64,000 nt of DNA from Ignavibacteria bacterium. GTDB taxonomy: Bacteria; Bacteroidota; Ignavibacteria; Tepidaquicellales; Tepidaquicellaceae. A model generated the notes under the pieces. That model saw nothing but the letters and a program-made list of their open reading frames with translations. It was not told the DNA's origin and did not search any database. Both the position numbers and the translations under genes were made by a program. Positions 22,639 through 28,045 of this stretch are shown piece after piece. Within the stretch, counting starts at the first letter, position 1. Each line of letters begins with the position of its first letter. The stretch spans positions 1-64,000 of the forward strand of contig JAQTLX010000007.1 in NCBI GenBank assembly GCA_028714695.1. The letters are read 5' to 3'.

Positions 22639-23712
22639 TTAGTTTTCGATTTTCAGCAGGAGCATTTCATTTGAAAAACCCGGTCCTAAAGCCAGCATTA
22701 ATCCGTAACCGTTCTTGAATCCGTTACTGATGAATTTATCCAGCATATACAGAACAGTTACGCTCGACATGTTTCCGTAGTTTCTTAGAATATCCCTGCT
22801 TATTTTCAGTTCGCCGTTTTTGAATCCCAGGGATTCTTCGTAGGCATTTAAAACTTTTGCACCGCCGGGGTGGAAAATGAAGTTAGTGATATCGTTTATG
22901 TCAAGATTATTCTTTCCGAGGAACAGGTCTATGTCTTTCTTCAGGTCACGGCGTATAATATCGGGTATTTCCTTTCCGAAAATTACTTTAAAACCCGAGT
23001 CTATGATTTCCCATCCCATAACACCTGCCGCATCGTAATATAATTTGCTTTCGGAAAAAATAATGTCAATTTTGGTTTTTGCATTTTGGCAGTATCTGTC
23101 AAATGCTTTATCGCCGGCAACGAGTACGCAAGCAGCACCGTCTGAAAATAAACTTGCGGCGATGAAATTGCTTTTTGAAAATTCATCATCAATAAATGTG
23201 AGAGAACAGAGTTCAACGGCTGCAATAACTATCACCGCATCGGGATTTGCTTTTGCAATAGTGTTTGCCTTCGCAAGTGCGGATACTCCTCCCGCGCACC
23301 CCAGCCCCCATAAAGGCATTCGGTTAATGTTCTTGTTTAAACGCATTTTGTTTGTAATAAGAGAATCAATGCTCGGCGCTGCAAGTCCTGTTGTGTTGAC
23401 GTAAATTATATCGGTAATAACGGATTTGTCGATTGAGGCTTTTTTGAGACAATCCTCGACCGCTATTACCGAATAATCAAGCGCTATGTTCTGATATATA
23501 CGGTTTTTCTCAGAAAAAGACGGCTTGCCGCCGTATTGTATTATAGGCCGGCATAAATTTCTTCTGTCAATTTCGGAATTATCGAATACGGAAAGCATTT
23601 TATCAATGTTTGAATAGGCATTTTGAAATATTATTCCTGCCGCTTGTTTTACGGTATCCTGCGGGACCGAATTCTCAAAATCAGTTTTTGAAACTGCTAT
23701 TATTTTTGGCAT
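22639..23712 (-). CDS. Type III polyketide synthase (chalcone/stilbene synthase-like)
   Basis: 357 residues, the usual length of bacterial type III PKS. The catalytic triad is complete: Cys139 (WGLGCAGG), His281 (FIFHPGG) and Asn314 (NYGNMSS), with a C-terminal GYGLMLALGPGFSNEMLLL block. Such enzymes condense a starter acyl-CoA with malonyl-CoA to alkylresorcinols, alkylpyrones or similar. Bacterial homologues often sit beside a methyltransferase or oxidase; none is present here, so the product is unknown. It lies upstream of the sigma gene on the same strand, 242 bp apart. Confidence 0.92.
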   Translation of the reverse strand: MPKIIAVSKTDFENSVPQDTVKQAAGIIFQNAYSNIDKMLSVFDNSEIDRRNLCRPIIQYGGKPSFSEKNRIYQNIALDYSVIAVEDCLKKASIDKSVITDIIYVNTTGLAAPSIDSLITNKMRLNKNINRMPLWGLGCAGGVSALAKANTIAKANPDAVIVIAAVELCSLTFIDDEFSKSNFIAASLFSDGAACVLVAGDKAFDRYCQNAKTKIDIIFSESKLYYDAAGVMGWEIIDSGFKVIFGKEIPDIIRRDLKKDIDLFLGKNNLDINDITNFIFHPGGAKVLNAYEESLGFKNGELKISRDILRNYGNMSSVTVLYMLDKFISNGFKNGYGLMLALGPGFSNEMLLLKIEN

Positions 23713-24194: not shown

Positions 24195-24524
24195 ATGGTT
24201 AAGTACACTTATATTGCAATATTTATATTGAGTCTTGTTTCGGGCATTATCCTATATGGCTGCGACGGCTTGTTTCCTTCCGCTTCCAAACCTACTGTCC
24301 CCGGCGATCACACTGTAAACTACGGAGGCTTTCTTCATAAAGGCGGCGAAAGCGGAAACGGAAAAGGGATTACGCCCGATGAGTGTGAAGACTGCCATTC
24401 CCTTGACCTGAAAGGTAAAGTCAGTAAAATTAACGGTGTATATACATGGGCGCCTTCCTGCCTACAGTGCCACGGCGAAGTATGGAAAAGAGGCGGCAAT
24501 AACGGAAATAATACAACACAATAA
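24195..24524 (+). CDS. Small diheme c-type cytochrome lipoprotein
   Basis: 109 residues with a lipoprotein signal ending LYGC (Cys near residue 23) and two CxxCH heme sites, CEDCH and CLQCH, in the C-terminal half. It should be a membrane-anchored periplasmic electron carrier. A TTG three bases earlier is possible, but the ATG at 24195 is preferred. It is the first gene of the TlpA-DUF4266-DUF3570-NusG II-ApbE series, so its hemes may exchange electrons with a flavinylated partner. Confidence 0.85.
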   Translation: MVKYTYIAIFILSLVSGIILYGCDGLFPSASKPTVPGDHTVNYGGFLHKGGESGNGKGITPDECEDCHSLDLKGKVSKINGVYTWAPSCLQCHGEVWKRGGNNGNNTTQ

Positions 24525-24534
24525 TTTTGTAAAT

Positions 24535-25026
24535 ATGAAAAAATTATTTTTAATTTATATGCTGGCGTTTATTCCCCTGTTCGTTTATTCTCAGGATATA
24601 GGAAAAAGCGCTCCTTTGTTTTCGGGCAAAAGTTCAACAGGCGAAAGTATAAGTCTATCCGACTATAAAGACAAGGTGGTCATTCTTGATTTCTGGGCAA
24701 GTTGGTGCAAACCATGCAAAGAAGAATTTCCTTTCCTAATAGATTTCTACGGTCAAAATTCCGGAAAGGATTTTTCAATTCTTGCAGTGAACATTGACAA
24801 CGAATCTTCCAATGCTGTCAAATTTCTTAATTCTTTGAACAAAGAGATTCCCTATAAAATTATATTCGACTCCGAATCAAAGATTCCGCCTTTATATAAT
24901 ATTGAATCAATGCCAAGCGTTTTCGTTATCGATAAAAAAGGAATCGTGCGGTTCGTACATATCGGATTTACAAGCGGCGACAAAGAGAAATACAAAAACG
25001 AAATCGAAAAACTTTTAAGTGAATGA
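24535..25026 (+). CDS. TlpA-like thioredoxin family protein, exported
   Basis: 163 residues: a signal peptide (MKKLFLIYMLAFIPLFVYSQ) and a thioredoxin fold with the redox pair in WCKPCKEEFP and the cis-proline segment ESMPSVFVID. TlpA/ResA proteins reduce periplasmic disulfides, often for cytochrome c maturation or metal delivery. The ATG is 10 bp after the cytochrome stop, and the gene's last bases overlap the DUF4266 start (ATGA), showing tight coupling. Longer upstream starts would run into the cytochrome gene and lose the signal peptide. Confidence 0.92.
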   Translation: MKKLFLIYMLAFIPLFVYSQDIGKSAPLFSGKSSTGESISLSDYKDKVVILDFWASWCKPCKEEFPFLIDFYGQNSGKDFSILAVNIDNESSNAVKFLNSLNKEIPYKIIFDSESKIPPLYNIESMPSVFVIDKKGIVRFVHIGFTSGDKEKYKNEIEKLLSE

Positions 25027-25241
25027 AAGCAAAAATATTATATATATTATTGTTTTTCGTTTTCCTGCTTATAACCGGCTGTGCCGTTGTTCAGCCATGG
25101 GAAAGGGAAAGGCTTGCCGACCCGAATATGATATTTGACGAAAACCCGATACAAAAAGGCGTTCAGGACCATTATATAAATATCAGAGAAGGTTCCGAAG
25201 GCGGAAACGGTTCCGAAAGCGGAGGATGCGGCTGTGGTTAA
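25023..25241 (+). CDS. DUF4266 lipoprotein with Gly/Cys tail
   Basis: 72 residues. The lipobox is ITGC near residue 20, followed by the DUF4266 core (VQPWERERLADPNM, then HYINIREGSEGG). It ends with a Gly/Ser-rich tail and a terminal GGCGCG. It overlaps the thioredoxin gene by 4 bp and the DUF3570 gene by 8 bp. DUF4266 has no known function but is repeatedly found next to DUF3570. The Cys-Gly end could bind a metal or be modified; this is inference. Confidence 0.85.
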   Translation: MKAKILYILLFFVFLLITGCAVVQPWERERLADPNMIFDENPIQKGVQDHYINIREGSEGGNGSESGGCGCG

Positions 25242-26376
25242 AAAATTATTTATAATAATTTTATTCCTGTACCCCGTAATATCTTTTTCCCAGACGGAGC
25301 CCGAAAACGAAATTCAGGTTAATATGAATTCGTATTTCGATAATTTCAGGCTGATTGTTCTGTATCCTTCAGTGAACGTCACGAAAAGCCTGGACAACAA
25401 TACAAGCATATCAGGCTCTTACCTCGTTGACGCTATAAGTTCAGCATCAATGAAAATGACTTTCAAGGTTGACGGAATTACATCGGCTACCGCGAATAAA
25501 CAAGGCGGTTCCGACAATACTCCCGATGAACTCCGACATCAATTTAATCTCGGACTGTCAAGAAATATTTCAGGCGTAACTGTCGCTGCCGACGGCATGT
25601 ACAGCATAGAGCACGATTATTCGTCAAAGACGTTTGCTGCAAACATTACGGTTCCTTTCGCGAAGAAGAATACAATCTTTAAATTCGGTTATGCAGGCAA
25701 CCGGGATAAGATATTTCCGCAAACAAGATTCTGGACAAAAAACAGAAATACGTCCACACTAAATATAGGTCTTACACAGATTCTTTCCAAAAAGTTAATT
25801 GCTCAGTTTGATTTTTCGTTTATAAATATTGACGGATATATGCTCGACGGATATCAGGTTGTAAGGATTATTAATTCTTCAAATGTGAGTTTTCTTGAAC
25901 CGGTTGAACCGGAAAAAAGAATCAGAAAAGCAGCGGGCGTAAGAACAAATATCGCGGTATCAAAACTTTCTACACTTCTGCTTGGATACAGATATTACTG
26001 GGATACATGGGATATTAAATCCCACACTTTCGATGTAGAATATAAAACACATCTGAGCCAGTCTCTAAACCTGTCGCTTGCTTTCAGGCAATATATACAG
26101 ACGCAGGCGTATTTTTTCAAACCCGAATATTTTACGCCTGAACCATTCATGGCGGTTGACAGTAAATTAAATTCCGGATATACAAATGATTTATCGGCAA
26201 GCATAACTCTTAAAGGCAGCAGGGATTTAAAATTACCGTTCCTGAATAATGAGAATCTGACTTTCCTTGCGAGTCTTGGGATTTACCACAGGCATACGGA
26301 TTCGCCGGACTGGGCTTTGAGAATGTCCGAATTATATGCTTATTTAATTTCACTTGGATTAAAAATATCAATATAA
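25234..26376 (+). CDS. DUF3570 outer-membrane barrel with two flavinylation-like motifs
   Basis: 380 residues: a signal peptide (ending ISFSQ, residue 20) and a beta-barrel-like DUF3570 domain. Near the N-terminus are two spaced sequences, DAISSAS (66-72) and DGITSAT (80-86), which resemble the D-x-x-[ST]-[GS]-A-[ST] motif where ApbE attaches FMN to Ser/Thr. The apbE gene is two genes downstream, so covalent flavin on Ser72 and Thr86 is plausible. The start is a GTG overlapping the DUF4266 stop; the upstream frame gives no better choice. The family is firm, the flavin idea is inference. Confidence 0.85.
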   Translation: MVKKLFIIILFLYPVISFSQTEPENEIQVNMNSYFDNFRLIVLYPSVNVTKSLDNNTSISGSYLVDAISSASMKMTFKVDGITSATANKQGGSDNTPDELRHQFNLGLSRNISGVTVAADGMYSIEHDYSSKTFAANITVPFAKKNTIFKFGYAGNRDKIFPQTRFWTKNRNTSTLNIGLTQILSKKLIAQFDFSFINIDGYMLDGYQVVRIINSSNVSFLEPVEPEKRIRKAAGVRTNIAVSKLSTLLLGYRYYWDTWDIKSHTFDVEYKTHLSQSLNLSLAFRQYIQTQAYFFKPEYFTPEPFMAVDSKLNSGYTNDLSASITLKGSRDLKLPFLNNENLTFLASLGIYHRHTDSPDWALRMSELYAYLISLGLKISI

Positions 26377-26382
26377 AATAAA

Positions 26383-27024
26383 ATGGATCGCAGAGATTTT
26401 TTAAAAACATCATCGATGTTTATTGCCGCGGGCATGGTTTTGCCTTCAGCCGTAAAATCGATGTTATCAAAGCCTGCTGCAAAATCAGCGGATAGTTTTT
26501 CGCTTGAAGTAATTACTGATAATCCCGATAAGGCTTCATCGCTAATTCAGCAGTTCGCTAAAAACGGATTTCAGGGATACAATGATTTAAAATATTCGGA
26601 GTTTCCCGTTTCAGGAAGTGTAATGGGCGACCTTGTGTATGTGCAGAACGGGCAACTCTGCGATTACACAAAATCATACGATGATGAAAGCCTGCTCCTG
26701 AAAGAAATCAGAAGTAAATTGAGTCTTCCGTCAGTGCTGTCAAATCCCGTACGAATAAGATTGTACAGAAACAACGGCTCTGATTTAAGAAAAGTTTTTG
26801 TCGCAAGGAAAGGGCAAATTATTCAGACACTGGACCCGTTCACTGCTGACAGCGTTACGCTGCACGGGAAATCCGGCAAACTAATTCTGAACGTAAATAA
26901 CGGAATTATAAATGTATCGGATTCGGATTGCAAACATAAAATCTGCAAACAAATGAGTTCAATCCGGAAAAACGGAGATTATATTACCTGCATACCAAAT
27001 GAATTACAGATATTCGCGGAATAA
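26383..27024 (+). CDS. Exported protein with NusG domain II (Tat-like signal)
   Basis: 213 residues. The N-terminus MDRRDFLKTSSMFIAAGMVLPSA is a twin-arginine-type signal, suggesting folding before export. The last 60 residues (SVTLHGKSGKLILNVNNGI, then DCKHKICKQM and YITCIPNELQI) form a NusG domain II-like fold, with three cysteines that could form a disulfide or metal site. The middle part (about 40-150) is unassigned. It begins 6 bp after DUF3570 and overlaps ApbE by 26 bp. NusG II proteins are often found beside ApbE or Rnf genes. Confidence 0.8.
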   Translation: MDRRDFLKTSSMFIAAGMVLPSAVKSMLSKPAAKSADSFSLEVITDNPDKASSLIQQFAKNGFQGYNDLKYSEFPVSGSVMGDLVYVQNGQLCDYTKSYDDESLLLKEIRSKLSLPSVLSNPVRIRLYRNNGSDLRKVFVARKGQIIQTLDPFTADSVTLHGKSGKLILNVNNGIINVSDSDCKHKICKQMSSIRKNGDYITCIPNELQIFAE

Positions 27025-28045
27025 AAACAACATGCTTATAATTCTCGAAACAGCAGTGACTTTTTTACTGCTGTTTTTTATTGCCGGCGAAACTCACGCG
27101 CAGGACAGCATCCCTGTATTCGAAATGTCGGCAAAAAAATATCTGATGGGCACTGAATTCGAAATAACGGCAGTACATCCGTCGGTTGATACCTGCAAGC
27201 GGGCAATGTATCTTGCATTCAGGGAAATAGAAAGAATTGAAAAAGTCACGAGCAATTATAAGGACTCGACGGAAATAAGTTATGTTAACAGAAATGCTTT
27301 TTTATCGCCGGTAAAAATGAGCCCTGAACTTTTCGGAATAATTGAGCGAAGCATAAAATATTCCGTAATGTTCGACGGCTTTTTCGATATTACAGTCGGA
27401 CCGCTGACCGATTACTGGGGATTTAATTCCGAGCATCCGCTGGAAACTGAGCCCGATTCGTCGAAAATAAAATCACTGCTCGGATTTGTGAATTATAAAC
27501 TGGTTGCACTTAATACTGTTGATTCAACAATTCGATTTCTGAAACACGGTATGAAAATCGACCTCGGCGGCATCGCAAAAGGATATGCGCTCGACCGTGC
27601 GGTTGATGTCCTTAGAAAAAGCGGAGTGAATAATTTTCTCATAAGCGGAGGAGGGGATATTTATGCAAGCGGTCATAAACCAAACGACGTAAAATGGACG
27701 GTCGGCGTAAAAGACCCGAGGGACAACGAAAACCTTGCGGCGAAACTTGAAGTCGAAAACACGGGCGTAATAACGAGCGGGGATTACGAACGATACAGAA
27801 TCATAAATGGAATAAGGTATCATCATATATTCAATCCTAAAAACGGATTCCCGGCGAATCTCTCGCAGAGCGCCTCGGTTATTTATAACGAATGCGAAAA
27901 GGGCGTGGTGCTCTCTAAAATATTGTTCATACTTCGTGAGGATTCCAACGATTATTTCGACGGCATACCGTATTATCTGATAAATCAAAAGGGGAATGTT
28001 ATCTATAATACGCTGTTAAAACCCTATCTCGTAATTAGTAAATAA
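26999..28045 (+). CDS. apbE: ApbE family FAD:protein FMN transferase
   Basis: 348 residues. The ApbE hallmarks are YLMGTEFEITA, DGFFDITVGPL, DLGGIAKGYALDRAV, SGGGDIYASG and TSGDYERYRIINGIRYHHIFNPKNG. The enzyme transfers FMN from FAD to a Ser/Thr of an exported protein using Mg2+. The start at 26999 supplies Arg/Lys residues before the hydrophobic signal segment, whereas 27032 would leave none, so the longer form is preferred. The likely acceptor is the DUF3570 protein in the same operon; no classical FMN-bind domain is present in the window. Confidence 0.93.
   Translation: MNYRYSRNKNNMLIILETAVTFLLLFFIAGETHAQDSIPVFEMSAKKYLMGTEFEITAVHPSVDTCKRAMYLAFREIERIEKVTSNYKDSTEISYVNRNAFLSPVKMSPELFGIIERSIKYSVMFDGFFDITVGPLTDYWGFNSEHPLETEPDSSKIKSLLGFVNYKLVALNTVDSTIRFLKHGMKIDLGGIAKGYALDRAVDVLRKSGVNNFLISGGGDIYASGHKPNDVKWTVGVKDPRDNENLAAKLEVENTGVITSGDYERYRIINGIRYHHIFNPKNGFPANLSQSASVIYNECEKGVVLSKILFILREDSNDYFDGIPYYLINQKGNVIYNTLLKPYLVISK

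Follow-up and report, generated by a model that had tools for sequence, protein, structure and literature searches.

What is built by a compact gene cluster that encodes both a flavin transferase of the ApbE family and an outer-membrane barrel with two flavinylation-like motifs, and on which side of the membrane would the flavins sit? This question is raised by positions 24195-28045 (+ strand) of the window, a 64,000-nucleotide stretch of DNA from an Ignavibacteria bacterium (contig JAQTLX010000007.1 of assembly GCA_028714695.1). Here, six genes follow one another with overlaps or with gaps of no more than about 10 nt. The initial annotation had described them as a tightly spaced series of diheme cytochrome, TlpA, DUF4266, DUF3570, NusG II, and ApbE genes, and this description is confirmed by the coordinates, by Pfam matches for five of the genes, and by the CXXCH motifs of the cytochrome. 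The features are as follows.

24195-24524, + strand: heme c lipoprotein with two CXXCH motifs and the lipobox LYGC; conserved first gene of the cassette
24384-24398 and 24459-24473, + strand: the CXXCH pair of this cytochrome (residues 64-68 and 89-93)
24535-25026, + strand: TlpA/ResA-like thioredoxin (Pfam AhpC-TSA, 5e-25; alignment)
24706-24717, + strand: CKPC of the TlpA motif WCKPC
25023-25241, + strand: DUF4266 small lipoprotein (Pfam 1.3e-19), overlapping the TlpA gene by 4 nt
25227-25238, + strand: C-terminal CxC of the DUF4266 protein (CGCG), conserved in the alignment
25234-26376, + strand: DUF3570 outer-membrane barrel (Pfam 1.7e-41), overlapping the DUF4266 gene by 8 nt
25429-25449, + strand: flavinylation motif 1, DAISSAS (residues 66-72, putative acceptor Ser72), invariant or nearly so
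25471-25491, + strand: flavinylation motif 2, DGITSAT (residues 80-86, putative acceptor Thr86), invariant or nearly so
26383-27024, + strand: NusG_II-domain protein (Pfam 1.3e-13)
26389-26400, + strand: Tat-like signal RRDF of the NusG_II protein
26929-26946, + strand: conserved CxHxxC of the NusG_II protein, in which C203 (26989-26991) is also conserved (alignment)
26999-28045, + strand: ApbE flavin transferase with a signal peptide (Pfam 8e-73), overlapping the NusG_II gene by 26 nt
27905-27919, + strand: altered metal site of ApbE, VVLSK, with Val303 at the place of FmnB Asp301 and Lys307 at that of FmnB Thr305

The heme c lipoprotein has no Pfam match, and cytochrome c assembly proteins are present in the genome. 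The TlpA-like protein matches the NCBIfam ResA-like family below its cut-off. ApbE scores 246 bits against the PF02424 profile (cut-off 25.6) and is encoded by a single copy in the 96%-complete genome; its gene and that of DUF3570 flank the NusG_II gene. Promoter and terminator scans returned no more matches than scans of shuffled sequence. Just upstream, a gene on the - strand (22639-23712) encodes a chalcone/stilbene synthase-like type III polyketide synthase (Pfam 2e-20).

Part of the answer is already in the literature. In Chlorobium luteolum, ApbE was shown to attach flavin to DUF3570, and this is abolished only when both serines are changed (Méheust et al., 2021; PMC8238504). Clusters of this kind include a thioredoxin-like protein and a DUF4266 protein that ends in a CxC tail; DsbD often accompanies them, although its presence beside the cluster is typical and not obligatory, as 316 clusters lack it (PMC8238504). 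NusG is not mentioned in that paper, and a search of the open-licence literature found no other paper that names DUF3570 or DUF4266. The window likewise encodes DUF3570 together with ApbE, two motifs in the barrel, a thioredoxin-like protein, and DUF4266 with its C-terminal CxC. The central idea of the initial annotation, a DUF3570 protein doubly flavinylated by ApbE, is thus right but already published, since it was demonstrated for C. luteolum (PMC8238504). What goes beyond the published system are the additions to the cassette, the substitutions at position 5 of the motifs, and the altered metal site of ApbE.

Both motifs were found at the residues given for them beforehand. Only 12 of 200,000 shuffles of the window DUF3570 contained at least two motifs of the form D-x-x-[ST]-[GSATP]-A-[ST], which together with the invariant columns rules out a chance origin of the pair. 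In an alignment of 12 DUF3570 homologues, Asp66, Ser69, Ala71, Asp80, Gly81, Ser84, and Ala85 are invariant. All 27 DUF3570 proteins encoded in cassettes carry at least two D-x-x-[ST]-x-A-[ST] motifs, with three in L063 and L089, so that the conservation proposed earlier as a check holds for both motifs in the alignment and in the cassette members (27/27). Position 5 is the exception: Ser, Ala, or Thr replaces the canonical Gly in 27/27 cassette barrels, Ser stands there in both motifs of the window protein, and the strict [ST]GA[ST] form is absent from all 27. In another protein, flavinylation fell by half when a Gly was replaced by Ala (PMC12052999).

As the annotation had noted, no classical FMN-bind domain accompanies these genes; a search of the 96%-complete genome found none of the other known acceptors FMN_bind, DUF2271, and NqrB/RnfD. 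Among the 44 genomes of the order, ApbE is encoded in 11/11 with DUF3570 versus 3/33 without it (Fisher 4.7e-8); two of these three ApbEs lie at broken contig ends, and the remaining one, L137, belongs to the ordinary Asp/Thr type. Taken together, the C. luteolum experiment (PMC8238504), the conservation of the motifs, the joint occurrence of DUF3570 and ApbE, and the failure to find any other known acceptor in the genome support DUF3570 as the acceptor of two flavins, and the window protein very probably carries both covalently.

The transferase itself is unusual, in its active site, a point on which the initial annotation had not remarked. Its residues were mapped by alignment to FmnB (7esa; phmmer 7.6e-47), and Ser260 and His276 are conserved, whereas the Asp and Thr ligands of a Mg2+-dependent, FmnB-like mechanism are replaced. 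Given Val303 and Lys307, what is claimed here is homology to ApbE, not the metal mechanism of FmnB. The replacement is not an error of assembly, because the same change is present throughout a single branch of 19 ApbEs drawn from separate genomes. Lys occupies the place of the ligand Thr in 19/19 members of this branch and the Asp place is always Val or Thr; the catalytic Ser, Glu, Arg, and His are intact in all 19. In each of the six cassette ApbEs of the Asp type, the ligand place is Thr, and, besides residue 122, Lys307 is the sole column fixed in one ApbE type and rare in the other. On the ApbE tree the Lys-type branch has a single origin (support 92/90), with one change of state compared with 16.1 in shuffles. 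In a DNA-pattern scan for further Lys-type ApbEs, reversed-pattern controls also matched, and because of this background the in-frame matches alone were retained. A tie between the Lys-type transferase and motif position 5 was ruled out, because Asp-type cassette members likewise lack the Gly. Elsewhere, in L064 (5790-8387) and L067 (5138-8187), ApbE has Glu at the place of the ligand Thr and keeps the Asp, and the neighboring DUF3570 lacks proper motifs (DVYASAS, LSSPS); this may reflect a joint drift of enzyme and acceptor.

Both Mg2+ ions of FmnB are bound by Asp301, and substitution with alanine at this site reduces or eliminates activity (PMC8906456). With both the Asp and the Thr replaced in 19/19 clade members, the window ApbE might be dead or altered, transferring no FMN without the Asp, and the motifs might be kept for another reason. 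Such a loss is nevertheless highly improbable given that the active site is otherwise intact, the gene is retained in the cassette in every member of the family, and the acceptor motifs remain invariant. Moreover, the Asp is also missing from the ApbEs of Chlorobiaceae, which have Gly at this place in 20/20 and keep the Thr (branch support 100/100). One of these genomes, L133, with one DUF3570 gene and an adjoining DsbD gene, is very probably that of C. luteolum DSM 273, so its ApbE is presumably the published active enzyme. Loss of the Asp, then, need not abolish flavinylation of DUF3570, and loss of this metal-binding residue need not mean loss of ApbE function. The window ApbE is accordingly taken as active without the usual Mg2+-binding Asp; that Lys307 does part of the work of the metal is a guess. 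In Chlorobiaceae (L019-L046, L066, L133), only 8-12 residues precede the fold in most of the DUF3570-linked ApbEs, which thus apparently have no signal peptide; the cytoplasm may be where they act on the unfolded DUF3570 chain.

The initial annotation had seated the two flavins near the periplasmic mouth of the barrel, and it is on this point that the model departs from it. AlphaFold2 with 57 homologues predicts DUF3570 as a 16-strand porin-like barrel (mean pLDDT 87, pTM 0.82), and with 12 homologues the layout is identical. One side of the barrel holds both termini and the short turns, and the opposite side holds loops 69-98, 202-227, and 290-314, giving the features of an outer-membrane barrel: an even strand count, termini together, short inward turns, and long outward loops. 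Both motifs fall in the long loop after strand 3, opposite the termini. The termini of such barrels lie in the periplasm, and the loop that carries the motifs is thus predicted to be extracellular, as the second such loop of the barrel, which gives no support to a place near the periplasmic mouth. The model can be aligned along its full length with OmpG, CymA, PgaA, and PelB, and the structure searches match a wide variety of porins and transporters; these matches are read as informative on the predicted fold and orientation, not on function. Outward loops are usually the most variable part of a porin; in DUF3570, conservation is 3.03 bits in outward loops, 2.80 in strands, and 2.27 in inward turns.

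The motif loop is poorly resolved, with pLDDT below 50 at residues 75-83 and 91-95 and little definition over 75-95, and it might therefore fold into the lumen, as loops of porins commonly do. DUF3570 would then still be flavinylated, and its flavins would exchange electrons with the periplasmic side, where the proteins encoded by all the genes beside it reside; this arrangement would come close to that of the initial annotation. Against this placement, the start of motif 1 coincides with the outer end of strand 3, and residues 68 and 99, which bound the loop, both lie at the outer rim of the modeled barrel. The C. luteolum system also points outward: in L133, one motif stands at the end of strand 3 as in the window, and the other, read from sequence, lies in the preceding outward loop, so that the second site, in loop 2 in the window protein and loop 1 in C. 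luteolum, appears to have moved yet stayed on the outside. A loop folded into the lumen is, on this evidence, unlikely, and the extracellular placement is preferred.

The order cytochrome-TlpA-DUF4266-DUF3570-NusG_II-ApbE recurs across the family and order of the window genome, whose nearest named relatives are metagenome-assembled genomes (MAGs) labelled Ignavibacteriae or Bacteroidetes, and in MAGs labelled Kapaibacterium, Chloroherpetonaceae, Caldithrix, and Latescibacterota; the flanks of the recurring cassettes are mostly unlike one another. A few cassettes lack TlpA (L050, L052, L054, L060), and in L080, L087, and L090 NusG_II and ApbE are non-adjacent, with ApbE encoded elsewhere in those genomes. 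In the Ignavibacteria and their allies, the DUF3570 core is thus embedded in a conserved six-gene cassette with a heme lipoprotein and a Tat-type NusG_II protein. The pairing of NusG_II with ApbE is wider than the cassette, since L137, L138, and L143 have NusG_II directly before an ordinary ApbE and no DUF3570 in the stretch read. A Chloroherpetonaceae MAG (L089:3998-5176) encodes a cassette cytochrome of 392 residues with 11 CXXCH motifs, beside the DUF3570 with three motifs. Genomes of family f25 (G246, G227, G192, G250, and others) hold several DUF3570 copies, some in tandem, compared with one in the family of the window genome. Viral relatives of DUF3570 were looked for, and none were found.

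Overall, the cassette probably builds a double-flavin redox protein of the outer membrane, with its flavins on an outward loop and in electron exchange with periplasmic partners. First, ApbE would attach FMN to Ser72 and Thr86 of DUF3570, as demonstrated for the C. luteolum homolog. Flavinylation would precede insertion of the barrel, because sites on an outward loop would afterwards be out of reach of a periplasmic enzyme; the apparent lack of a signal peptide in Chlorobiaceae ApbEs lends support to this order. The 16-strand barrel is then predicted to be inserted with its flavin pair in the second extracellular loop, beside the other well-conserved outward loops. Finally, electrons may reach or leave the flavins via the TlpA-like thioredoxin, the CxC lipoprotein DUF4266, and the heme lipoprotein, through which the barrel would serve electron transfer at the cell surface. 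These three proteins are candidate electron partners by gene linkage, and the exchange between the flavins and the cytochrome that the annotation had envisaged is plausible on the same grounds. The conserved thiol proteins of the cassette, together with the DsbD adjoining the Chlorobium cluster, could instead indicate a system mainly for thiol redox or barrel assembly, in which disulfides are the substrates of TlpA and DUF4266 and the flavins play a secondary part. This is very unlikely, as the window DUF3570 has no cysteine, and hence no disulfide to form, and the heme lipoprotein is part of the same conserved gene order. Counting against the surface redox protein are Ser at position 5 of both motifs, the crippling effect of Asp301 changes in FmnB, and the poorly resolved motif loop. 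The more specific proposal, a porin-flavin route in which the surface flavin pair is made by a transferase without the Mg2+-binding Asp and with a lysine replacing part of the metal site, is possible but tentative.

If the flavins are outside, Ignavibacteria and green sulfur bacteria could exchange electrons at their surface without a multiheme wire, and the function of DUF3570 becomes testable. The change in ApbE offers a natural test of which metal ligands are truly needed for flavin transfer, and it could be relevant where ApbE is employed to label proteins.

Among known systems, Pcc/MtrCAB likewise has an outer-membrane barrel encoded with redox proteins, and the barrel of the Mtr complex is one of the many structural matches of the DUF3570 model (6r2q, Z 16.5, rmsd 8.2). 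Unlike Pcc/MtrCAB, the window system has a predicted 16 strands and, as proposed, covalent flavins instead of a heme wire; the window encodes no multiheme cytochrome, and the single cytochrome of its cassette has two CXXCH motifs. With FmnB of Listeria monocytogenes (7esa), the window ApbE shares the fold and the equivalents of Ser257, Glu261, Arg262, His273, and Ala187, but differs in Val303 for Asp301 and Lys307 for Thr305. The closest likeness is to L133, in the core order TlpA-DUF4266-DUF3570-ApbE, the two motifs, and the CxC tail of DUF4266. In contrast to the Chlorobium cluster, DsbD does not adjoin the window cassette, and DsbD_TM genes lie on other contigs. Position 5 of the motifs is Ser, Ala, or Thr in the cassette and Gly in the published system, and the window ApbE has a signal peptide and a Val/Lys metal site, unlike the C. 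luteolum system. A heme lipoprotein and a Tat-type NusG_II protein are added to the clusters of Méheust et al. (2021). The window system is real and well conserved, with a known core and with heme and NusG_II parts, motifs, and a transferase that differ.
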